Shown one piece after another: positions 8,851 to 19,262 of a DNA stretch of 61,214 nt. Location: contig JACWEA010000005.1 in the NCBI GenBank assembly GCA_014653775.1, forward strand, positions 1-61,214, given 5' to 3'. Below the pieces are notes generated by a model. The model was not told the origin of the DNA, made no database searches, and saw only the letters and a list, made by a program, of their open reading frames with translations. This stretch comes from Pelagibacterales bacterium SAG-MED30 (GTDB lineage: Bacteria > Pseudomonadota > Alphaproteobacteria > Pelagibacterales > Pelagibacteraceae). The position numbers and the translations under genes were made by a program. How positions within the stretch are numbered: the stretch's first letter is position 1; every line of letters starts with the position of its first letter.

Positions 8851-9369
8851 TTAAAATCTTACTTCTTGAAATCTTAAATTTTTTTTATCTTTCTTAGATA
8901 AAATTGGTATTTTTGTAGTCCAATTTATCTTTAATTCCTCATCGTTCCATTTTACTCCAATTTCAGAATTTTTATCTCTATAATTTGTACAACCATATAT
9001 AACTGTGTTTTCTTTATCTAGTCCAAGAAAACCATGAAGAAATCCTGGAGGTATATAAATAGATTTACTATTTTTTTCACTTAATATTATTTTAAAATGT
9101 TTTCCAAAAGTTTTTGATTTTTTTCTACAATCAACAACAACATCTAAAATTTTTCCTTTCAGGCAGGATATATATTTTCCCTGTTGAAATTTTTTTTGCA
9201 TATGCAAACCTCTTAAAACATTTTTTTTTGATTTAGATACAACAGTAAAAATTAATTTTTGTTTTATTAATTTTTCAATAGCCAGTTCTCTAAAATAGCC
9301 TCTATTATCATAAAAATTTTTAGATTTAAAAACTAATAAATTTTTAAACTTTGTTTTTATTATTTTCAT
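8851..9369 (-). CDS. rmlC: dTDP-4-dehydrorhamnose 3,5-epimerase family protein
   Basis: A 172-residue cupin of the RmlC family, close to the usual 180. Motifs include DNRGYFRE near residue 22, LRGLHMQKKFQQGK with the catalytic His, DVVVDCRKKSKTFG, YIPPGFLHGF and GVKWNDEELKINW. Family role: epimerises C3 and C5 of dTDP-4-keto-6-deoxyglucose; relatives can epimerise only one centre. Directly abuts rmlA (one base between stop and next start), so transcribed with it. The residue W/Y of the family YxxxQ-like QQGK pair is conserved enough for a catalytic enzyme. Confidence 0.85.
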   Translation of the reverse strand: MKIIKTKFKNLLVFKSKNFYDNRGYFRELAIEKLIKQKLIFTVVSKSKKNVLRGLHMQKKFQQGKYISCLKGKILDVVVDCRKKSKTFGKHFKIILSEKNSKSIYIPPGFLHGFLGLDKENTVIYGCTNYRDKNSEIGVKWNDEELKINWTTKIPILSKKDKKNLRFQEVRF

Positions 9370-10236
9370 TTATAAAAGTTTAGTTAAATATTTTGAGTAA
9401 TCACAATTACCATAAAACTTTATTGATTGTTTTAAATGTTTCTTTTTTATCCATTTGTTATTAAATGCAATTTCCTCCAAGCAAGCAATTTTAAGACCTT
9501 GTCGATTTTCAATTGCAGAGACAAAGGAACTTGTTTTATAAAAATCATCCATTGAGCCAGTATCTAACCAAGCTCCACCTCTACCAATCAAATCAGCTGA
9601 TAGTTGATTTTTTGATTTATAAAAGTTTAATAAATCAACTATTTCTACTTCCCCTCGCTTTGAAGGCTTTAGTTTTTTTGCAAAATTTACCACCTTATTA
9701 TCGAAAAAATATAAACCTGTAATTGCAAGATCTGAAAAAAATTTTTTTGGTTTTTCCTTAATCTTGGTAATTTTTTTTTGATTATTAATCTTAGCAATTC
9801 CAAATAATTCAGGTTTTAAAACTTTGTGTAATACTACTCTAGCTCCTTTACTAAGTTTTGTGTTATCTAAAAGTAATTTAGATAAGTTTTGTCCATAAAA
9901 AAAATTATCACCTAAAATCATAGCAACATTTTCTTTACCAATAAATTTTTCTCCTATTACAAAAGCATCAGGAAGACCTCTTGGTTTAGATTGTTCCAAG
10001 TAACTTATTTTAATACCTAAGTTGTCACCATTCGGTAAAATTTTTTTATATTGTTCTAGTTGACCTTTATTTACTATAATTAGAATATCTTTAATTTTTG
10101 ATAACATTAAAATTGATAATGGATAAAAAATTAAAGGCTTATCGTAAATTGGTAATAATTGTTTATTAACTGCTTTTGTTAAGGGACTCATTCTTGTTCC
10201 TTTTCCTCCAGCTAATATAATTCCTTTTTTAATCAT
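9370..10236 (-). CDS. rmlA: Glucose-1-phosphate thymidylyltransferase
   Basis: Makes dTDP-glucose from dTTP and glucose-1-phosphate, the entry step to dTDP-deoxysugars. The 288 residues match the family length of about 290. The nucleotide loop GGKGTRMSPLTKAVNKQLL is at residues 10-28, followed by DKPLIFYPLS, LGDNFFYGQ with the metal Asp, and WLDTGSMDDFY near the C-terminal half. The start overlaps the rmlB stop by four bases. Glucose-1-phosphate may come from the phosphohexomutase at 29255. Confidence 0.93.
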   Translation of the reverse strand: MIKKGIILAGGKGTRMSPLTKAVNKQLLPIYDKPLIFYPLSILMLSKIKDILIIVNKGQLEQYKKILPNGDNLGIKISYLEQSKPRGLPDAFVIGEKFIGKENVAMILGDNFFYGQNLSKLLLDNTKLSKGARVVLHKVLKPELFGIAKINNQKKITKIKEKPKKFFSDLAITGLYFFDNKVVNFAKKLKPSKRGEVEIVDLLNFYKSKNQLSADLIGRGGAWLDTGSMDDFYKTSSFVSAIENRQGLKIACLEEIAFNNKWIKKKHLKQSIKFYGNCDYSKYLTKLL

Positions 10237-11246
10237 CTTTTACCTAATCTATTTATAATATCTTTTTTTGAAAGTGATTTGTAATAAGATTTATTTTCAA
10301 AATACCAATCAAGAGTTAATTTTATTCCTTTTGAAAAATTTATTTTTGGATACCAACCAAGTTCTTTTTTAATTTTATTACTATTTAAAGCATATCTTAT
10401 ATCATGTCCTGGACGATCTTTTATAAATTTAATTTTGACTTTATTTCCCAAATTAATTTTTTTTTTTGATTCTTTTATAAGTTTTTTAGTAACCTCTAAG
10501 TTATTTAAATTTTTATTTGAACCTATATTATAAAATTGTCCTATTTTACCTTTTAAAAAGACTTTGATTAACGCTTCACAATGATCTTTTACATAAATCC
10601 ATTCTCTAGAGTTTCTCCCTTTTCCATAAATGGGTAACGGTTTATTATTTAAAATATTGTATATTAATTTTGGAATTAACTTTTCTGGATGTTGTTTTGG
10701 TCCAAAATTATTTGAACAATTAGTGACTATTGCAGGTAAATTGTAAGTTCTAACATAGGAGCTAACTAAATGGTCTGATGCTGCTTTGCTAGCAGCGTAT
10801 GGTGAGCTTGGGTGGTAAGGATATTTTTCATGTGATCTACCAGTTAAAATATCTCCATAAACTTCATCTGTAGAAATATGAATTAATTTACATTTATATT
10901 TTTTTGTAAAATTTCTAAAATTTTCTAATAAATTATAAACAGCTACAATATTGCTTTGTATAAAACTATCTGGATTGTCTATAGATCTATCAACATGAGT
11001 TTCTGCAGCTAAATTAAATATCCCAGACGGTTTATATCTAAATAAAATATTTTTTATCTTTTTATCTTTAATATCAAGCTTTATAAATTTATATTTCTTT
11101 GAATTTTCAAAATCTTTTACATTGTAAATATTGGATGAATAAGTTGCCTTATCAATATTGATAACAAAAAAATTTTTTCTAAGTAGTAGATCTATTAAAT
11201 TACTTCCTATAAAACCCAATCCGCCTGTTACAATGATTTTTTTCAT
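10233..11246 (-). CDS. rmlB: dTDP-glucose 4,6-dehydratase
   Basis: Converts dTDP-glucose to dTDP-4-keto-6-deoxyglucose. The 337-residue protein has the NAD loop TGGLGFIGSN, FNLAAETHVDRSID, the catalytic STDEVYGD motif with the Asp-Glu pair, YAASKAASDHL (YxxxK) and NCSNNFGPKQHPEKLIP, all diagnostic of RmlB. First gene of the six-gene minus-strand run. Its start diverges from the glycosyltransferase at 11301 with a 54-base gap that must hold both promoters. Confidence 0.94.
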   Translation of the reverse strand: MKKIIVTGGLGFIGSNLIDLLLRKNFFVINIDKATYSSNIYNVKDFENSKKYKFIKLDIKDKKIKNILFRYKPSGIFNLAAETHVDRSIDNPDSFIQSNIVAVYNLLENFRNFTKKYKCKLIHISTDEVYGDILTGRSHEKYPYHPSSPYAASKAASDHLVSSYVRTYNLPAIVTNCSNNFGPKQHPEKLIPKLIYNILNNKPLPIYGKGRNSREWIYVKDHCEALIKVFLKGKIGQFYNIGSNKNLNNLEVTKKLIKESKKKINLGNKVKIKFIKDRPGHDIRYALNSNKIKKELGWYPKINFSKGIKLTLDWYFENKSYYKSLSKKDIINRLGKR

Positions 11247-11300
11247 CTTTTGATTTTTACATTACAAAAAAGTTTTAGTATAGTTCAATATACATACATC

Positions 11301-12185
11301 ATGTCAATAACTAGGCAAAATTTTTCAGTAATAATTGTAAGCTTTAAAAGTGATCATGTGATAGAAAAATGCATAAACTCCATAGATAATCAAATAGAAA
11401 TTATAGTTATAGATAATTCAAACGATATCCAATTTAAAAATAAAATTGAAAAAAAATACAATAATGTAAAGTGTATTTTATCTTCATCAAATATTGGAAT
11501 GGGAGCTGGAAATAACTTGGGTATAAAAAATGTTAGCAATGATTATGCCTTTATTTTAAATCCTGATGTAATTTTAAAGAATGATACTATTGATGAGATT
11601 ATAAAAGTTGTTAAATCTATAGACTCTTTTGGATTAATTGCTCCAATTTCAGATAAGACACAATATCCAAACTACAAGTTAGATAAAAATAAAAAACAAA
11701 TTTTTGATCCTATAAATCCATTTAAAGTAAAAAGCGTTGATGGATTTGCTATGCTTTTAAATTTAAAAGATTTAAGAAAAATAAAAAATTTTAATTTTTT
11801 TGATGAGAATTTCTTCTTATATCTTGAAAATGAGGATTTATGTCTAGAGTTAATAAAAAATAATATGAATATTTATATAATACCAAAATCTAAAATAAGT
11901 CATCTTGGTGGTGAAGCGGTTAATCCTAAGTATGAAGATGAAATTGAACTTTCTAGAAATTGGCATTGGATGTGGTCAAAATTTTATTTTAATAAAAAAC
12001 ACTATGGTTATTTAGTTGCCATTTCCAAAGTAATAAAAAATTTAATTTCAGCAAAGATTAAATTTTTTTATTACTTGATTACATTTAACAATAAAAAAAG
12101 AAGAATATATCAAATGAGACTTTTAGGTTTATTAAATTCTATGGTAGGGAGAAAATCTAATTATAGACCAAAATTAGATAATTAG
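11301..12185 (+). CDS. Glycosyltransferase family 2, rhamnosyltransferase-like
   Basis: A 294-residue GT2 enzyme. It opens with FSVIIVSFKSDHVIEKCINS and has IIVIDNSND, NIGMGAGNNLGI and FILNPDVIL, the Asn-Pro-Asp motif typical of WbbL-like rhamnosyltransferases, then DENFFLYLENEDLCLEL near residue 170. ATG 11301 (MSITRQNF) fits the family N-terminus better than the upstream ATG at 11250, which lies in the divergent promoter region. No membrane anchor is obvious. Neighbouring rml genes suggest a dTDP-deoxysugar donor. Its stop overlaps the apt stop tail-to-tail. Confidence 0.83.
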   Translation: MSITRQNFSVIIVSFKSDHVIEKCINSIDNQIEIIVIDNSNDIQFKNKIEKKYNNVKCILSSSNIGMGAGNNLGIKNVSNDYAFILNPDVILKNDTIDEIIKVVKSIDSFGLIAPISDKTQYPNYKLDKNKKQIFDPINPFKVKSVDGFAMLLNLKDLRKIKNFNFFDENFFLYLENEDLCLELIKNNMNIYIIPKSKISHLGGEAVNPKYEDEIELSRNWHWMWSKFYFNKKHYGYLVAISKVIKNLISAKIKFFYYLITFNNKKRRIYQMRLLGLLNSMVGRKSNYRPKLDN

Positions 12186-12709
12186 TGACCTGGAAAATCA
12201 ATTAAATTTTCTACTTTGTAATCTTTTTTAATTAAATTATCTGATCCTCCTAAATCAAATAGATTAATCACAAAGATGAAAGCTGCAACTTTTCCTTTTG
12301 ATATTTCAATTAACTTTGCCGCAGCTTCCGCTGTACCACCAGTGGCAACTAAATCATCAATTATTAAAACCGAGTCTTTCTCATTTATAGAGTCTTTATG
12401 AACTTCTATAGTTGCTGTTCCATACTCTAGTTCAAAATCTATAGAGTGAACGTCCGCAGGTAATTTATTTTTTTTTCTTAATAATATAAAAGGTTTTTTT
12501 AGGATATATGATACAGCTGAAGCAAAAACAAATCCTCTAGACTCTATTGCAGCAATTTTTGTAAAATTATATTTTTTAGATCTTTCTACGATTTTATTAA
12601 TAGTTTCAGCAAAAGCATTTTCATCTTTAATTAATGTTGTAATATCTCTAAATAAAATGCCTTTCTTAGGGTAATCTGGAATAGATCTAATAAAATCTTT
12701 TAAATTCAT
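12182..12709 (-). CDS. apt: Adenine phosphoribosyltransferase
   Basis: Salvages adenine to AMP with PRPP. The 175 residues match the family. MNLKDFIRSIPDYPKKGILF is the characteristic N-terminus, AIESRGFVFASAVS the hood region, and VLIIDDLVATGGTAEA the PRPP loop near residue 120. It diverges from mtnP by only 40 bases. That pairing makes sense because MtnP releases adenine from methylthioadenosine. Shares its stop region with the GT2 gene. Confidence 0.95.
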   Translation of the reverse strand: MNLKDFIRSIPDYPKKGILFRDITTLIKDENAFAETINKIVERSKKYNFTKIAAIESRGFVFASAVSYILKKPFILLRKKNKLPADVHSIDFELEYGTATIEVHKDSINEKDSVLIIDDLVATGGTAEAAAKLIEISKGKVAAFIFVINLFDLGGSDNLIKKDYKVENLIDFPGH

Positions 12710-12749
12710 ATGGTTAATTATAAAAGTATAAATAAATTATATTTTAAAC

Positions 12750-13622
12750 ATGACAATAAATAAATTAGCAATAATTGGTGGAAGTGGCCTTTATGATGTT
12801 GAAGAATTTAAAGATAGGGAGCTATTAGACTTAAATACGCCTTGGGGAAAGCCATCAGACCAAATTTTAAAAACAAAATTCAATAACAAAGAAATTTTTT
12901 TTCTACCACGACACGGAAGAGGACATCATATTTCACCAACAAATATTAATTTTAGAGCAAATATTGATGCTTTAAAACAATTAGGCATTTCAGATATTGT
13001 ATCAGTATCAGCAGTTGGATCTTTAAAGGAAGATTTACCTCCAGGTAAATTTATTATAATTGATCAATTTATTGATAGAACGTTTGCTAGAAAAAAAACA
13101 TTTTTTGATGAAGAAATAGTGGCCCATGTTTCAATGGCTTATCCAACTTCAGTTGGTTTAATGAATGCTTGTGAAGAGGCAATTAAAAAAGAAAAAATAG
13201 AATATCAAAGAGGAGGAACTTATGTTGTTATGGAAGGTCCTCAATTTTCAACGTTAGCTGAGTCTAATTTATATAGATCTTGGAAAGCAGATGTAATTGG
13301 AATGACTAACATGCCTGAAGCAAAGTTAGCTAGAGAAGCAGAAATAAGATATGCATCAGTATCCATGGTAACAGATTATGATTGTTGGCATCCAGATCAT
13401 GAAAATGTTGATGTTCAACAAGTTATAAAAGTTTTATTGAGTAATGCTGTTAAAGCCAAAAATATGATTAAAAATTTAATAGAAATTTTTGAAAATCATA
13501 TTGATCCTAAAGATCCAACAAATAATTGTTTGGATGTTGCAATTATAACAGATCCTAAAAAACGAACAAATAAAACAAAAGAAAAATTAAAAACTATTGC
13601 AGGGCGTGTTTTAGATCAATGA
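12750..13622 (+). CDS. mtnP: S-methyl-5'-thioadenosine phosphorylase
   Basis: Splits methylthioadenosine with phosphate into adenine and methylthioribose-1-phosphate. The 290-residue protein starts LAIIGGSGLYDVEEF, has the phosphate-binding FLPRHGRGHHISP, and the substrate stretch GTYVVMEGPQFST followed by DVIGMTNMPEAKLAREAE. First gene of a tight plus-strand operon: the TPR gene, mtnA, aldolase and speDE follow with overlaps of one to four bases or a five-base gap. Relatives can also act on 5'-deoxyadenosine. Confidence 0.94.
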   Translation: MTINKLAIIGGSGLYDVEEFKDRELLDLNTPWGKPSDQILKTKFNNKEIFFLPRHGRGHHISPTNINFRANIDALKQLGISDIVSVSAVGSLKEDLPPGKFIIIDQFIDRTFARKKTFFDEEIVAHVSMAYPTSVGLMNACEEAIKKEKIEYQRGGTYVVMEGPQFSTLAESNLYRSWKADVIGMTNMPEAKLAREAEIRYASVSMVTDYDCWHPDHENVDVQQVIKVLLSNAVKAKNMIKNLIEIFENHIDPKDPTNNCLDVAIITDPKKRTNKTKEKLKTIAGRVLDQ

Positions 13623-14179
13623 AAAAAATAATATATATTATAATATTAAATTTAATTTTAATTTTAAATGCTAATGCTAAAAGTAATAATTTAACTCAAG
13701 TTAATGAACTTAACAAACTTTTTAATGACTTAAGTAAGATAAATAATATTCAAGATGGAGATATTTTAGAAAAAAAAATTTGGGCTGTTTGGAATAAACA
13801 CCCAAATCAAAACTTCTTAACACAAAAATTGGAGTTTGGCACTAGGCTGATGTATCAAGGTCAATACGAATATGCATTAAAAGTTTTTACGAACATCATT
13901 GAAATAGATCCAAAATGGTCAGAGGCTTGGAACAAAAGAGCTACTTTGTTATTTTTAATGAAAGATTATCAAAAATCTTTAGACGATATTAGTAAGGTAT
14001 TAGATTTAGAACCAAGACATTTTGGAGCTTTATCAGGCAGAGCTCAAATATATATTGATTTAGAATTATATCAAAATGCTCTTAAAGATTTAAAAGATGC
14101 AAAAAAAATTCATCCAGTTATTAGGGGTAATAAATTAATCGATGAACTTGAAAAACTAATTAATGGACAAAATATATAA
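13619..14179 (+). CDS. Exported tetratricopeptide-repeat protein
   Basis: A 186-residue protein with a cleavable signal peptide (Lys-Lys then a long hydrophobic run, cut likely after LNANA near residue 21). About three TPR units follow between residues 75 and 175, with consensus pairs such as YQGQYEYALKVF, AWNKRATLLFLMKDYQKSL and ALSGRAQIYIDLELYQNAL. It should be periplasmic. It overlaps mtnP by four bases and mtnA by one base, so it is translated within the methylthioadenosine operon although no TPR protein is needed for the pathway. A scaffold or lipid/envelope role is possible; function unknown. Confidence 0.8.
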   Translation: MKKIIYIIILNLILILNANAKSNNLTQVNELNKLFNDLSKINNIQDGDILEKKIWAVWNKHPNQNFLTQKLEFGTRLMYQGQYEYALKVFTNIIEIDPKWSEAWNKRATLLFLMKDYQKSLDDISKVLDLEPRHFGALSGRAQIYIDLELYQNALKDLKDAKKIHPVIRGNKLIDELEKLINGQNI

Positions 14180-15249
14180 TGAAAATAAAAGGACAAGAGT
14201 ATCGTACTATTTGGTTTGAGAACAATATTGTAAAAATAATAGATCAAACAAAACTTCCTCATAAATTTACAATTAAGGAGCTAAAAACTATCAAAGATGC
14301 AGTCAATGCAATTAAAGTAATGGAAGTAAGAGGTGCTCCTTTAATAGGAGCAACAGCTGCTTATGGTTTAGTACTTTCCATCATAGAAAATAATGATCAA
14401 TCTTTTTTAAAAAAATCTGCTGAGGATTTAATTAAATCACGACCGACAGCAATAAATCTTAAGTGGGCAGTAGATAGAATAATGAATAAATTATCAGGAT
14501 TAAATAGTGATAAAATTTTAGATATAGCAATTAATGAAGCTAAACAAATTTGTGAAGAAGATGTAAAATTTTGTGAAAATATTGGAATAAATGGTCTTAA
14601 AATTATTGAAGAAATTTATAATAAAAAAAAAGATACGGTAAATATTTTAACTCATTGTAATGCAGGATGGCTTGCAACAATTAATTGGGGCACAGCAACT
14701 TCTCCAATTTATCATGCACACAAAAAAGGCATTCCCGTTCATGTTTGGGCAGATGAAACAAGACCAAGAAACCAAGGAGCAAATTTAACTTCTTATGAAT
14801 TAAATGAGGAGAAAGTTCCAAATACAATAATTGCCGACAATACAGGAGGGATCTTAATGCAAAGAGGAGAGGTTGATTTGTGTATTGTTGGAACAGATAG
14901 AACTTTAGCAAATGGAGATGTTTGTAATAAAGTTGGAACTTATCTTAAAGCATTAGCAGCTCATGATAACAATATACCTTTTTTTGTAGCCCTACCTAGT
15001 TCAACAATTGATTGGAATATAAAAGATCATAAAAATATTCCAATTGAGAAGAGAAACTCAGAGGAATTATCATATATCGAAGGTTTAGATGAAAAAGGAG
15101 TAGTTAAAAAAATACAAATATATCCAAAAAATAGCAAAGCGATGAACTTGGCATTTGATGTTACACCTGCAAAATATGTTACAGGTTTAATTACTGAAAA
15201 GGGAGTTTGTGAGGCATCAACTAAAGGATTAAAGAAGTTGTTTAAATGA
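14179..15249 (+). CDS. mtnA: S-methyl-5-thioribose-1-phosphate isomerase
   Basis: Isomerises methylthioribose-1-phosphate to methylthioribulose-1-phosphate. The 356-residue protein has VMEVRGAPLIGATAAYG, SRPTAINLKWAVDRI, ILTHCNAGWLAT with the catalytic Cys, and VGTDRTLANGDVCNKVGTY with the catalytic Asp, all typical of MtnA rather than eIF2B. Relatives may use 5-deoxyribose-1-phosphate as well. Overlaps the aldolase start by four bases. Confidence 0.94.
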   Translation: MKIKGQEYRTIWFENNIVKIIDQTKLPHKFTIKELKTIKDAVNAIKVMEVRGAPLIGATAAYGLVLSIIENNDQSFLKKSAEDLIKSRPTAINLKWAVDRIMNKLSGLNSDKILDIAINEAKQICEEDVKFCENIGINGLKIIEEIYNKKKDTVNILTHCNAGWLATINWGTATSPIYHAHKKGIPVHVWADETRPRNQGANLTSYELNEEKVPNTIIADNTGGILMQRGEVDLCIVGTDRTLANGDVCNKVGTYLKALAAHDNNIPFFVALPSSTIDWNIKDHKNIPIEKRNSEELSYIEGLDEKGVVKKIQIYPKNSKAMNLAFDVTPAKYVTGLITEKGVCEASTKGLKKLFK

Positions 15250-15911
15250 AAAATTTAAAAGAAAGAGAAGAAGTAATTGAATATTCAATTAAACTAAATA
15301 CCACTAACTTATCTCCTTTAAGGTCTGGAAATATTTCAGTAAGAGGATCAGAAGATGATATCGAAGGTTTTTTCATTACTCCATCTGGAAAAAAGTACGA
15401 ATCTCTAAAACCTGAAGATGTTGTTTTTTTATCATTAACTGAAGAAAAGGATTTTTTATCTTGGTTTAATTCTGGAAAAAACCCTTCATCTGAATGGAGG
15501 TTTCACCAAGATATTTATAAAAATAAATGGGAAGCAAAAGCTATTGTTCATGCCCATTCCCCACATGCTTCAGCAGTTTCGACTCATGGTAAATCAATAC
15601 CACCATTTCATTATATGATTGCTCTTGCAGGAGGTGAAGATATTAAATGTTCAGAATATGCAACTTTTGGTACATACGAACTTTCTATGAATATCATTAA
15701 AGCTTTAAAAGATAGAAAAGCATGTTTGATGTCAAACCACGGTCAGGTTGCATTTGGAGAAAATTTATCCAAAGCATTTGAACTTGCACAAGAGATAGAA
15801 AATATTTGCCAACAATATATTATTGCACTAAAGATAGGAGAACCAAAAATTCTTTCATTAGCAGAAATGAAAAAAATTTTGGAAAAAGTGAAAAATTATA
15901 AAAGTGGATAA
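15246..15911 (+). CDS. Class II aldolase (FucA/Ald2-like), likely methylthioribulose-1-phosphate aldolase
   Basis: A 221-residue zinc aldolase. It shows SGNISVR, FFITPSGKKYESL, the acid/base Glu in PSSEWRFHQDIY, zinc ligands in VHAHSPHASA and the third His in LMSNHGQVAFG. This is closer to fuculose-1-phosphate aldolase and the Ald2 enzyme of the DHAP shunt than to the MtnB dehydratase. Placed straight after mtnP and mtnA, it would cleave methylthioribulose-1-phosphate to DHAP and methylthioacetaldehyde, or the deoxy analogue to acetaldehyde. MtnB activity cannot be excluded, but no mtnC/mtnD genes are present. Confidence 0.8.
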   Translation: MKNLKEREEVIEYSIKLNTTNLSPLRSGNISVRGSEDDIEGFFITPSGKKYESLKPEDVVFLSLTEEKDFLSWFNSGKNPSSEWRFHQDIYKNKWEAKAIVHAHSPHASAVSTHGKSIPPFHYMIALAGGEDIKCSEYATFGTYELSMNIIKALKDRKACLMSNHGQVAFGENLSKAFELAQEIENICQQYIIALKIGEPKILSLAEMKKILEKVKNYKSG

Positions 15912-15916
15912 TTTTT

Positions 15917-16957
15917 ATGACAAAGGTTGGGGAGCACATCACTTTAGATATTATAGGTACAAATAAAGAATACGAAGCATCTTTATTTGAAAAAGTAATT
16001 CACGATATTGCTAAAGCAGCAAATGTTACAATTTTAAATATTTCTAAATATAAATTTGAACCACAAGGATTTACAATTTTAGCTTTATTGGCCGAAAGTC
16101 ACATTAGTTTTCATACTTTTCCAGAGAAAGGTATGATAAGTTTTGATTTTTTTACTTGTGGAACAATTAGTCCATCAGTTGCAATCGATATAATTAGAAA
16201 GGAATTTAAACATCAAAGAATTGTTAAGAAAGAATTTAATAGAGATACCATAGCTTTATATCATGATATTTATAGCTCTCCAGGTTTACAGAAGGCTTAT
16301 GTGGTAAATGATGTTTTAGAAGATTTTAAATCAAAAGTAGGTCAACATATTGAAATTTTAGAGTTAGAGCAATTTGGGAAATCTTTATTTATTGATGGAG
16401 AAATTCAAGTAGCTGCATCAGATGAGCACTTATATAGCTCAACTTTTGTTGGAGCGGGTTTAAATTTAAACAAAGATAATGAAAGAGCAGCAATTATAGG
16501 AGGTGGTGATGGTGGAGTTGCAAGAGAATGTATTTCTAAAAAATTTAATTTTGTTGATTGGTACGAACTTGATCCTGAAGTTGTCGATGTTTGTAGTAAA
16601 CACTTAGGAGACATAGGTAAAAAAGCTACTGAAAAAAATTCAGTTAAATGTGTGTGGGGAGATGCATTTGAAAGTATAAAGTCAGTTGGTGATGACACTT
16701 ATGATCACATATTTGTTGATCTTAATGATGATCAATTTTGCATAGATTTAGCTGCTAAAAATATGGACTCCTTAGTCAGAATTTTAAAACCCAAAGGTGT
16801 TATTACAGCTCAAGTAGGCAGTCAGGATAAAAAACCTCTTCAAGTTGAAAATTGGCTTAATGTTTTTAACCATCATTTTGGAAACACTAATTTAGCTAGA
16901 GTTTACATACCTAGTTTTGATTGTACTTGGAATTTTTCTTCTTCAATTAATCACTAA
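15917..16957 (+). CDS. S-adenosylmethionine decarboxylase-spermidine synthase fusion (SpeD-SpeE)
   Basis: A 346-residue fusion. Residues 1-115 are a bacterial SpeD: LLAESHISFHTFPE has the Glu60-Ser61 self-cleavage site that makes the pyruvoyl group, His66, and Cys81 in FFTCG. Residues 120-346 are an aminopropyltransferase: IDGEIQVAASDEHLY, the SAM loop GGGDGGVARE (195-204), YELDPEVV and the catalytic pair in VDLNDD (Asp268 and Asp271), where most spermidine synthases have DSxDP. The product would decarboxylate SAM and use it to aminopropylate a diamine, releasing methylthioadenosine for the genes upstream. Acceptor diamine not predictable. Confidence 0.88.
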   Translation: MTKVGEHITLDIIGTNKEYEASLFEKVIHDIAKAANVTILNISKYKFEPQGFTILALLAESHISFHTFPEKGMISFDFFTCGTISPSVAIDIIRKEFKHQRIVKKEFNRDTIALYHDIYSSPGLQKAYVVNDVLEDFKSKVGQHIEILELEQFGKSLFIDGEIQVAASDEHLYSSTFVGAGLNLNKDNERAAIIGGGDGGVARECISKKFNFVDWYELDPEVVDVCSKHLGDIGKKATEKNSVKCVWGDAFESIKSVGDDTYDHIFVDLNDDQFCIDLAAKNMDSLVRILKPKGVITAQVGSQDKKPLQVENWLNVFNHHFGNTNLARVYIPSFDCTWNFSSSINH

Positions 16958-16973
16958 TTTTTCTTTTTTAATT

Positions 16974-17014
16974 CTTTAATTTATGAAATACTTGATCATA
17001 AATTATTAAAGGAG
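16974..17014 (+). promoter_or_regulatory. Inverted repeat that can cover the Shine-Dalgarno of the binding-protein gene
   Basis: AATTTATGA (16978-16986) and TCATAAATT (16996-17004) pair over nine bases with a nine-base loop. CTTT (16974-16977) can further pair with AAAG (17008-17011) across a three-base bulge. That AAAG is the first part of the AAAGGAG ribosome-binding site at 17008-17014, six bases before ATG 17021. It could dampen translation or mark the end of the speDE transcript; it lacks a T run for a classic terminator. Confidence 0.4.
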
Positions 17015-17020
17015 AAAATA

Positions 17021-17851
17021 ATGAATATACTTAAAAAAACTATTTTTTCAATTCTAGTTTCTTTGTTAATTATTGGAAACGTTTATGCTTCTGATAAAAT
17101 TAGGATTGGAACTGAAGGTGCTTATCCTCCATGGAATTCAAAAGATGCTTCAGGTAAGCTAATTGGATTTGAAGTAGAATTAGCTTGGTCTCTATGTAGA
17201 TACATGGAAAGACAGTGCGAAATTGTTGAGCAAGATTGGGATGGAATGATTCCAGCACTTATTATGAGAAGATTTGATGCGATTATGGCGGGAATGTCTA
17301 TTACAGATGAGAGAAAAAAAGCTATTAGCTTCTCTCAAGGATATGCTGATGAAGTGGCATCACTTGCAGTAATGAAAGGTTCAGACCTAGAGGGAATAGA
17401 TACTCCTGAGGGAATAAATCTTACCCTGGGTGGTTCTGATGTAAAAAAAGCTCTTAAAACTATAACTGGAGCTTTAGCAGGAAAAACTGTTTGTACACAA
17501 ACAGCCACAATTCACCAAAACTTTTTAGAATCAGGTGATGTTGGAAAAATAAATCTAAGAACTTACAAAACTCAAGATGAAGTAAACTTAGACTTAGCTT
17601 CTGGTAGATGTGATGTAGCGCTAGCTGCAGCAGTTGCTTTTACTGATTATGCTGAGAAATCAGGAAAATCAGTTGTACTTGTTGGTCCAACTTTTTCTGG
17701 TGGAGCATTTGGTAATGGAGTGGGAGTAGGTATTAGACAAGATGATACTGAACTTTTAGATGCATTTAATAAAGCTATTAATAAAGCGAGAAAAAACGGA
17801 GACATTAGTAGAATAGCTACTAAGTGGTTTGGTTTCGACGCTTCTATGTAA
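17021..17851 (+). CDS. ABC transporter substrate-binding protein, basic amino acid/opine type
   Basis: A 276-residue periplasmic binding protein (SBP_bac_3). The signal peptide MNILKKTIFSILVSLLIIG ends near VYA-SDK (residue 24). The mature part opens IRIGTEGAYPPWN, with GFEVELAWSLCRYM, QDWDGMIPALIMRRFDAIMAGMSIT and RKKAISFSQGY, as in ArgT/HisJ and the octopine/nopaline-binding proteins. A strong Shine-Dalgarno (AAAGGAG) precedes ATG. It likely binds arginine, ornithine or a related cation, which would feed polyamine synthesis by the speDE fusion next door. The ligand is inference. Confidence 0.87.
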   Translation: MNILKKTIFSILVSLLIIGNVYASDKIRIGTEGAYPPWNSKDASGKLIGFEVELAWSLCRYMERQCEIVEQDWDGMIPALIMRRFDAIMAGMSITDERKKAISFSQGYADEVASLAVMKGSDLEGIDTPEGINLTLGGSDVKKALKTITGALAGKTVCTQTATIHQNFLESGDVGKINLRTYKTQDEVNLDLASGRCDVALAAAVAFTDYAEKSGKSVVLVGPTFSGGAFGNGVGVGIRQDDTELLDAFNKAINKARKNGDISRIATKWFGFDASM

Positions 17852-17865
17852 TTAATTTTAGATTT

Positions 17866-17888
17866 GGCGACTATAAAAAATAGTCGCC
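17866..17888 (+). other. Intercistronic stem-loop between binding protein and permease
   Basis: GGCGACTAT (17866-17874) pairs perfectly with ATAGTCGCC around a five-A loop, the most GC-rich hairpin in this region. No T run follows, and the permease ATG is only seven bases downstream. Similar hairpins behind binding-protein genes slow 3' decay or stop part of the transcription, giving more binding protein than permease. Confidence 0.65.
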
Positions 17889-17895
17889 AGTCTGT

Positions 17896-18588
17896 ATGGA
17901 ACTTCTTTCATTTGGAGATACTGGCTGGGGTGATGAATTATTTATTGCCACTTTAATGACTATTGCTGTTTCGATAACAGCAATGTTGATAGGCTTTACA
18001 TTTGCTTTAATATTTACTCCTCTCAAATTATCAAATAATAAATTTTTAAATCTAATTGCAAATTCTTACACTACTGTAATTAGAGGAGTTCCTGAACTAC
18101 TAGTTATTTATTTATTTTTTTTTGGTGGAAGTGGGGCGATTATGTATGTTGCTTCAATATTTGGTTATAATGAGTATATAGAAATAAATGCATTTATTAC
18201 TGGAGCTTTCGCAATTGGAATTATTTCTGGAGCTTATTCTACAGAGGTTTTTAGAGGAGCGGTTCAATCAATTGATAAAGGTCAGTTTGAAGCAGCAAAA
18301 GTTTTAGGTTTAAGTAAATTTGCCAAATTTTATAAGATTATACTTCCCCAAGTATTAAGACTTGCAATACCAAACCTTAGTAACGTTTGGCAGATTACGT
18401 TAAAAGATACTTCTTTAATTTCAGTTACAGGTCTAGTTGAAATTATGAGACAATCTTATATTGCAGCTGGATCTACTAGAGATCCATTATTTTTTTATTC
18501 TTTTGCAGCCCTTTTATATTTGTTGCTTACATTTTTAAGTATGAAATTGATTAATAAATTAGAAATTAAATATAGTAGAGGTTATTGA
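17896..18588 (+). CDS. Amino-acid ABC transporter permease, HisQ-like
   Basis: A 230-residue inner-membrane permease with about five hydrophobic segments. It has the family motif region TTVIRGVPELLVIYLFFF near residues 58-75, and the EAA loop near GQFEAAKVLGLSKFAKFYKIILPQ (about residues 130-155), which contacts the ATPase. First of two permease genes behind the binding protein; its stop overlaps the next ATG (TGATG). Partners with the HisM-like subunit for uptake of a basic amino acid. No ATPase gene follows. Confidence 0.87.
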   Translation: MELLSFGDTGWGDELFIATLMTIAVSITAMLIGFTFALIFTPLKLSNNKFLNLIANSYTTVIRGVPELLVIYLFFFGGSGAIMYVASIFGYNEYIEINAFITGAFAIGIISGAYSTEVFRGAVQSIDKGQFEAAKVLGLSKFAKFYKIILPQVLRLAIPNLSNVWQITLKDTSLISVTGLVEIMRQSYIAAGSTRDPLFFYSFAALLYLLLTFLSMKLINKLEIKYSRGY

Positions 18589-19262
18589 TGGATTTTGAAT
18601 TAATGTTTGCAAGCTTTCCTAAGTTATTAAATGCATCTATAATTACTCTAAAACTTTTATCAGTTTCTTTAATTATTGGATTATTTATAGGTTTTTTATT
18701 TGCCATTTTAAGATTAAACAAAAATATTTTTATTAATAAATTTGCTTATGGTTATTCTTATGTATTTAGAGGCACACCTTTATTAGTCCAAATATTCATT
18801 ATTTATTTTGGCTTAGGGCAAATCGAATATTTAAGATCAACTTTTTTGTGGGTAATACTGAAGGAACCTTACTGGTGTGCCATAATTGCTTTTTCATTAA
18901 ATACAGGTGCTTACACTTCAGAGATATTAAGGTCAGCATTTCAAACAATTAAACCTAGCTTAATAGAAGCTGGGAAAAGTTTAGGAATATCAAATAAAAT
19001 AATTTTTTATAAAATTCAAATACCTATAGCTATTAGACAGTCTCTACCAGCTTATGGAAATGAGATAATCTTAATGATGAAAGGGACTTCTTTGGCAAGC
19101 ACTGTAACATTAATGGATTTAACAGGTGTTGCAAAATATATTATTTCAACAACTTTTAAACCTATAGAAGTTTTTATTGTTGCAGGCGGTATATACCTAT
19201 TTATGACATTCTTAATTCATAATTTGATCAAATTTTTAGAGAAAAAATATAGCTTTAATTGA
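18588..19262 (+). CDS. Amino-acid ABC transporter permease, HisM-like
   Basis: A 224-residue permease with YVFRGTPLLVQIFIIYFG and the EAA loop SLIEAGKSLGISNKIIFYKI. I start it at ATG 18588, overlapping the previous stop; the TTG three bases earlier is less likely. Forms the heterodimeric channel with the HisQ-like protein. The gene that usually follows, the HisP-like ATPase, is missing, and an unrelated glycan protein begins 40 bases later. The importer probably borrows an ATPase encoded elsewhere. Confidence 0.87.
   Translation: MDFELMFASFPKLLNASIITLKLLSVSLIIGLFIGFLFAILRLNKNIFINKFAYGYSYVFRGTPLLVQIFIIYFGLGQIEYLRSTFLWVILKEPYWCAIIAFSLNTGAYTSEILRSAFQTIKPSLIEAGKSLGISNKIIFYKIQIPIAIRQSLPAYGNEIILMMKGTSLASTVTLMDLTGVAKYIISTTFKPIEVFIVAGGIYLFMTFLIHNLIKFLEKKYSFN

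Follow-up and report, generated by a model that had tools for sequence, protein, structure and literature searches.

An exchangeable methylthioadenosine disposal module beside the polyamine gene speDE in SAR11 bacteria: a proposal from comparative genomics

In the 61,214 nucleotide stretch of contig JACWEA010000005.1 of Pelagibacterales bacterium SAG-MED30 (assembly GCA_014653775.1; 815 kb, 69 contigs, 67% complete), hereafter the window, a compact locus at 12182-16957 combines the gene of a fused polyamine enzyme, speDE, with genes for the breakdown of its by-product 5'-methylthioadenosine (MTA). This locus is very probably a unit for polyamine synthesis that also has a line for disposing of the by-product, a dihydroxyacetone phosphate (DHAP) shunt of the MtnP type. 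We furthermore propose, at about even chances, that SAR11 bacteria have a swappable MTA-destroying cassette at a single speDE-adjacent locus, the three versions of which would lead to three different organosulfur products, one of them by means of a bifunctional cleaving and oxidising enzyme.

All genes named in the original prediction were found in place. On the minus strand lies apt, coding for adenine phosphoribosyltransferase (12182..12709; TIGR01090 195.3 bits, cut-off 185.85); it is divergent from mtnP, the two start codons being separated by 40 bp, and it adjoins the module in most SAR11 loci. The plus strand carries mtnP (5'-methylthioadenosine phosphorylase, 12750..13622; TIGR01694 307.7 bits, cut-off 274.85), the gene of a TPR protein with a signal-peptide-like start (13619..14179; TPR_1/TPR_2), mtnA (5-methylthioribose-1-phosphate isomerase, 14179..15249; TIGR00512 418.9 bits, cut-off 279), a class II aldolase gene (15246..15911; PF00596 164.9 bits) and speDE (15917..16957). 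The SpeD and SpeE that had been predicted are present, as a single fused gene: S-adenosylmethionine (AdoMet) decarboxylase and aminopropyltransferase share one open reading frame (PF02675 at residues 7-109, PF17284 at 119-165, PF01564 at 170-340), with the family match of the SpeD half (AdoMet_dc) over the cut-off. Neighbouring genes from mtnP through the aldolase overlap by 1-4 bases and therefore look like one transcription unit; the start of speDE is 5 bases past the aldolase stop.

According to the proposed scheme SpeDE would decarboxylate S-adenosylmethionine and pass aminopropyl groups on to putrescine and spermidine, each transfer setting MTA free. MtnP would convert MTA and phosphate to adenine, to be salvaged by Apt, and to methylthioribose-1-phosphate, which MtnA would isomerise to methylthioribulose-1-phosphate, and the aldolase would cleave the latter to 2-methylthioacetaldehyde and DHAP, an intermediate for the central carbon metabolism. 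5'-deoxyadenosine probably goes through the same enzymes. These activities of the SAR11 proteins, as well as the fate of the aldehyde, are what we infer from the sequences. That the polyamine by-product, adenine salvage and DHAP recovery are joined here, as predicted, is the best reading of gene content and order. The assignment to spermidine synthesis holds as far as a polyamine fusion is concerned and is too narrow as to the product, since the products reported for the SpeDE fusions of Ca. Pelagibacter HTCC1062 and HTCC7211 are spermidine, spermine and thermospermine (PMC11107197); those proteins belong to the same bacterial group and are likewise fused, and are likened to the window protein by architecture only.

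The search covered 61 genomes: the own genome, 36 others of the genus and 24 of the order (18 of the 61 at least 90% complete). speDE was present in 31 of the 37 genus genomes and in none of the 24 others. Exactly one of three modules accompanies it in all 31: MtnP-MtnA-aldolase in 25, an aldolase/dehydrogenase fusion in 4 and a nucleosidase in 2. Neither a genome with two modules nor speDE without a module was found among the 37 genus genomes, and the six without speDE lack all three modules. In every genus genome bearing the aldolase (25/25, own included) it adjoins speDE. The fusion version (G013, G023, G024 and G027) consists of a 677-residue class II aldolase/short-chain dehydrogenase beside speDE, which in G013 and G027 stands directly after mtnA on the opposite strand; it reached 905.3 bits against PRK08324.1-6 'bifunctional aldolase/short-chain dehydrogenase' (cut-off 639) and 441.5 against TIGR02632 RhaD_aldol-ADH, below the cut-off of 567.75. 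Together with MtnP and MtnA, this protein is predicted to add an NAD-dependent oxidation of the aldehyde. The nucleosidase version (G012, a single contig 100% complete, and G019) is a 175-177-residue MtnN-like protein between apt and speDE. It matches PF01048 over the cut-off (57.3 bits) and stays below the cut-offs of the nucleosidase models (best 95.8 vs 129); its MEA and ISD motifs align with those of the MTA/S-adenosylhomocysteine nucleosidases. mtnA was detected in 23 of the 25 aldolase, 4 of the 4 fusion and 0 of the 2 nucleosidase genomes of the genus, and because mtnA is absent and no mtnK exceeds the cut-off, methylthioribose is the predicted end product of the nucleosidase type. HTCC1062 may be of this type. 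Of the 24 genomes of the other family, all without speDE, 2 carry the nucleosidase and 1 carries the fusion.

A family-wide search detected speDE in 158 of 197 genomes. Four of these (G000, G004, G012, G158) were classified separately, 54 lie outside the classification, and for 100 further speDE loci (45 from the genus, 55 from other genera) the classification used slices no longer than ~13 kb instead of whole genomes. The slices contained 62 aldolase, 32 fusion and 5 nucleosidase modules, one mtnP alone and no case of two modules; mtnA was present in 61 of the 62 aldolase and 30 of the 32 fusion slices, and all 5 nucleosidase loci were without mtnP and mtnA. On a speDE tree (FastTree, 131 rows, without bootstraps) at least 16 changes of module type are required, against a mean of 39 with shuffled labels; the types are therefore clustered, yet they have been exchanged many times. 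At least 8 changes, for the aldolase type, are forced by well-supported branches.

The order of the genes in the aldolase version is far from chance. We collected 80 named SAR11 loci with the aldolase as query (73-97% identity, all of them Pelagibacteraceae, Pelagibacterales or Pelagibacter records), and mtnA is located directly 5' and speDE directly 3' of the aldolase in 77; the three exceptions are two contig ends (L002, L044) and an insertion (L014). In an evenly drawn class sample of 289 alphaproteobacterial genomes the aldolase occurs in 82 and mtnA over the cut-off in 126, and 73 of the 82 aldolase genomes have both (Fisher p = 8.6e-24). The two genes are same-strand neighbours with gaps of at most 186 bp in 53 of these 73 and stand apart in 20; the remaining 9 of the 82 have no mtnA over the cut-off.

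The TPR gene, which the original prediction had counted into the unit, is indeed present and is incidental cargo outside the conserved unit, being found at the mtnP/mtnA junction in 2 of the 80 named loci. As a part of the pathway it was ruled out: no gene lies between mtnP and mtnA in 84 of the 112 locus rows with both genes (rows not deduplicated, a few gaps being broken alignments), and unrelated genes occupy the place in others. The junction appears as a variable slot, with a gap above 100 bp in 28 of the 112 rows; the slot at 13619-14179 is shared by L013, L016, L023, L041, L064, L077, L116 and L222. Its occupants include this TPR protein, a PhyH oxygenase (L222) and a GFA protein (L219), both by Pfam, and, judged by eye among the same-strand open reading frames listed, proteins of hydrolase-like, peptidase-like and other kinds.

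The FucA/Ald2 features ascribed earlier to the aldolase were confirmed, in that the catalytic residues of FucA are kept and the MtnB cut-off is missed. FucA is the best NCBIfam model (190 bits, cut-off 264 not reached), the MtnB model giving a partial match of 58.7 bits (cut-off 137). In the PDB sequence ranking E. coli FucA is followed by Bacillus thuringiensis DrdA (6btd) and 4c24, and Aquifex 2irp, which we take to be an MtnB homologue, stands far lower; the AlphaFold model of the aldolase fits both FucA 1fua (42% identity) and DrdA 6btd (36%) well. Residues N29, S71, S72, E73, H92, H94, Y113, H155 and Y209 (FucA numbering) are identical in all 27 SAR11 alignment rows, which include the window aldolase twice. 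N29, S71, E73, Y113 and Y209 are positions probed by mutation in FucA according to PDB titles, and H92, H94 and H155 are presumably the metal histidines of FucA. At F131, probed by mutation as well, 21 of the rows have Phe and 6 have Tyr. An aldolase tree of 111 rows (82 class-level aldolases, the own one being that of the window, SAR11 sequences thinned at 85% identity and 3 E. coli references; quick IQ-TREE search without bootstraps) places the window aldolase within a supported clade of 39 rows, comprising 27 SAR11 and 10 mtnA-adjacent rows, plus one row whose mtnA lies elsewhere and one that lacks mtnA. Plasmid (706 records) and phage (22 records) collections gave no close relative, all matches being below 60% identity.

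The fusion bears on this step as well: a second class II aldolase replacing the first beside mtnA is evidence that aldol cleavage is what is needed there. G041, of the other family, is without speDE and has the fusion at the end of a series of overlapping genes, apt-mtnP-mtnA-fusion, and in Tistrella mtnP, mtnA and the fusion are consecutive on one strand. Among 2615 matching plasmid records, 14 of the best 20 were examined with 8-9 kb flanks (best homologues 46-51% identical); in 13 of the 14 an mtnA is found no more than 9 kb away from the fusion, in 12 of those 13 together with mtnK, and where the genes are annotated a sugar ABC transporter adjoins them. At the S. meliloti locus (H58) mtnA and mtnK are not among the annotated genes of the 9 kb flanks. 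We infer that this branch of the fusion family cleaves methylthioribulose-1-phosphate or 5-deoxyribulose-1-phosphate and then oxidises the aldehyde. On rhizobial and Devosia-family plasmids (L394:7966-20052, L395, L396, L398) the fusion is accompanied by a sugar-binding regulator, by a sugar ABC transporter and by mtnK-mtnA, then come a transketolase and, where the slice reaches so far (L394, L395), a RuBisCO-like protein; this set of genes looks like one for the uptake and use of methylthioribose or 5-deoxyribose.

The prediction that mtnB, mtnC, mtnD and mtnK are lacking could be upheld for three of the four. No genome among the 61 has mtnB over the cut-off (the weak matches include the aldolase of the window itself), mtnD (ARD) gave no match in any of the 61, and mtnK over the cut-off occurred in none; local mtnK matches in 24 of the 61 genomes did not exceed 35 bits (cut-off 275) and were not counted. 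Canonical methionine salvage is thus represented by neither MtnB nor MtnD in the 61 genomes, MtnC and MtnW/MtnX not having been searched. mtnA was found in 28 of the 37 genus genomes and 1 of the 24 others.

Several observations weigh against the proposed scheme. That genomes without speDE lack the modules too is in part trivial, given that speDE and its module occupy a common locus and that the assemblies have gaps. Aldolase-speDE is present and mtnA was not found in G001 (60% complete) and G005 (79%), and G031 (76%) possesses mtnP and mtnA without speDE or any of the three modules. One of the 100 further loci (L300, G394) has mtnP-speDE without mtnA or aldolase in the slice. Concerning the aldolase, its AlphaFold model is moderate only (mean pLDDT, the predicted local distance difference test, 68.5), the mutation-probed Arg212 of FucA is Arg in 0 of the 27 SAR11 rows, and Thr26, likewise probed, is replaced by Arg in 27 of the 27. 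Additionally, in the aldolase tree E. coli Ald2 and E. coli FucA form a sister pair. It follows that the family alone does not fix the substrate and the Ald2 function is not confined to one clade, and it is the gene context that carries the assignment of the aldolase; telling Ald2 from FucA by sequence alone was attempted and failed on this same grouping. Arg or Lys at position 26 is found in 19 of 52 mtnA-adjacent rows vs 3 of 29 rows with mtnA elsewhere or missing, and so this position may bear on the substrate.

L222:3870-9090 (G031) contains apt, mtnP, PhyH, mtnA and then a sulfatase-like gene. L300:2495-5192 (G394) contains apt, mtnP and speDE, its slice showing neither mtnA nor the aldolase, the fusion or the nucleosidase, and methylthioribose-1-phosphate would be a dead end there unless mtnA lies elsewhere.

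If the aldolase-family protein were an MtnB-type dehydratase, the locus would be the start of a partly divergent methionine salvage pathway, one that regenerates methionine. The common superfamily and the partial MtnB match speak for this, but the score is far below the cut-off that none of the 61 genomes reaches, no mtnD match accompanies it, E73, Y113 and Y209 are conserved as in aldolases, and the nearest structures are FucA and DrdA rather than the Aquifex protein; on the cut-off, the residues and the missing mtnD we have rejected this explanation, which is extremely improbable. It is also very improbable that the enzyme is an L-fuculose-1-phosphate aldolase for fucose with mtnA nearby by accident. 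Such a function would agree with the top PDB matches and with the best, below-cut-off NCBIfam model, yet the aldolase is adjacent to mtnA in 53 of the 82 aldolase-bearing alphaproteobacteria and to speDE in all 25 genus genomes, its place in the locus can be taken by an aldolase from a different subfamily, itself found with mtnA elsewhere, and E. coli Ald2 bears the same database name as FucA. The fucose explanation was discarded on this context. No fucI or fucK stands among the neighbours of the aldolase in the window, the rest of the genome not having been searched.

The remaining alternative takes 5'-deoxyadenosine from radical S-adenosylmethionine enzymes as the main substrate, with polyamine-derived MTA secondary. 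DrdA and the E. coli DHAP shunt are reported to act on 5-deoxyribose compounds (PMC6079011, PMC10986504), DrdA (6btd) is among the nearest structures of the aldolase, and the mtnP-mtnA-fusion set of G041 does without speDE. The module nevertheless goes with speDE, the producer of MTA, in 31 of 31 genus speDE genomes and in 99 of the 100 further loci, and we regard this alternative as unlikely.

Two claims about the sulfur could not be supported. The locus had been taken to close a cycle from which methionine sulfur leaves as methylthioacetaldehyde or its alcohol; export, refixing and oxidation are all possible. For aerobic R. palustris the conversion of 2-methylthioethanol to methanethiol is described, by enzymes called unknown in that source, and an R. 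palustris strain devoid of ald2 and the RuBisCO-like proteins is said to show very poor growth on MTA (PMC5893883); HTCC1062 is reported to form methionine from methanethiol and O-acetylhomoserine by MetY, under a SAM-V riboswitch, so that the sulfur can be refixed (PMC5069961). In E. coli with the DHAP shunt 2-methylthioethanol is stated to accumulate and the MTA sulfur to be unusable for growth (PMC10986504). For the aldolase type our guess is that excretion of the alcohol and recovery through methanethiol are equally probable, each somewhat short of an even chance, and that oxidation is the least probable outcome. In the non-SAR11 alphaproteobacterium G251 (L224:5065-7825) mtnA and the aldolase are followed directly by a gene resembling Zn-dependent alcohol dehydrogenases, a candidate aldehyde reductase for the aldolase product.

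The MtnP-type DHAP shunt is already known (PMC6079011, PMC10986504, PMC5893883), and the operon of the window is its SAR11 member: MtnP and MtnA are over their cut-offs, and a FucA-like aldolase with the catalytic residues adjoins mtnA. Rhodospirillum rubrum and Rhodopseudomonas palustris likewise use MtnP, MtnA and a class II aldolase for MTA. Their variant has an aerobic DHAP-methanethiol and an anaerobic DHAP-ethylene branch; no step leading to methanethiol or ethylene was identified for the SAR11 locus, and unlike theirs the SAR11 locus is operonic with a SpeD-SpeE fusion. Most of the carriers published so far are said to be terrestrial (PMC5893883), and clusters of an MTA phosphorylase or kinase with an isomerase and a FucA-like aldolase are reported from six phyla (PMC6079011). 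The drdK-drdI-drdA cluster of B. thuringiensis similarly combines an isomerase with a FucA-like aldolase (fold match at 36% identity); in SAR11 a phosphorylase takes the place of the kinase and a polyamine gene is added. With mtnK-mtnA-ald2 on the leuX island of E. coli the mtnA-aldolase pair is in common, but there the route runs through a kinase with a sugar transporter, and the aldolase groups with FucA and not with the SAR11 enzyme. The SAR11 fusion shares domain order and family with RhaEW (rhamnulose-1-phosphate aldolase/lactaldehyde dehydrogenase), which is reported to oxidise lactaldehyde with NAD and to be located always in rha loci (PMC3870299), in contrast to the SAR11 fusion with its mtnA and/or speDE.

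As far as the literature searched shows, the repeated exchange among three modules next to speDE is new, and so is the pairing of a RhaEW-like fusion with MtnA. In a search on SAR11 or Pelagibacter with MTA, methionine salvage, methylthioribose or the DHAP shunt, which left most subscription journals outside, the locus occurred in no title or abstract, and a search of open-access literature found no paper linking 'bifunctional aldolase' with 'methylthioribose'.

Downstream of speDE, on the plus strand, follow genes of an amino-acid ATP-binding cassette (ABC) transporter: a substrate-binding protein of Lys/Arg/Orn type (17021..17851; TIGR01096 233.6 bits, below the cut-off of 256.35), a first permease of HisQ/ArtQ type (17896..18588) and a second of HisM/ArtM type (18585..19262), both with PF00528 and with TIGR01726 over the cut-off. 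The substrate-binding protein gene and those of the two permeases come after speDE in most SAR11 loci. By eye no ATPase is seen in the open reading frames listed to 21.9 kb; the transporter (17021-19262) may supply arginine or ornithine for polyamine synthesis. Just upstream of apt in window coordinates (8851-12185) there are rfbC, rfbA and rfbB-like genes, recognised by eye, and a glycosyltransferase (Pfam). The gene content on this side varies strongly among SAR11 loci and resembles the edge of a variable sugar-coat region.

A scan for leader RNAs over the whole window gave a single tRNA as the sole match at the gathering threshold, and within 12150-17100 three matches, all below that threshold and all to eukaryotic families; a SAM riboswitch or other leader RNA at the locus was therefore dropped. 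Promoter and terminator scans of the locus gave signals at about the level of shuffled sequence, hence no regulatory claim is made.

SAR11 accounts for the majority of ocean bacteria according to PMC8437039 and relies on organic sulfur in reduced form (PMC10030771, PMC5069961), therefore the methionine sulfur that it spends on polyamines bears on marine organosulfur. The exchange of modules at one site constitutes a natural experiment, in which related strains with the same polyamine enzyme have different predicted by-products. If the proposal is true, closely related cells would release methylthioribose, methylthioethanol or methanethiol, or methylthioacetate for each polyamine made, and an unrecognised bifunctional enzyme would cleave methylthioribulose-1-phosphate and oxidise the aldehyde to methylthioacetate. 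This suggests a role for part of a large family whose members bear only the annotation of a bifunctional aldolase/short-chain dehydrogenase or of a rhamnose enzyme. Methylthioribose released by the nucleosidase type would furthermore be a shared nutrient for bacteria such as Mariluticola, which combine this fusion and mtnK-mtnA with a sugar ABC transporter.

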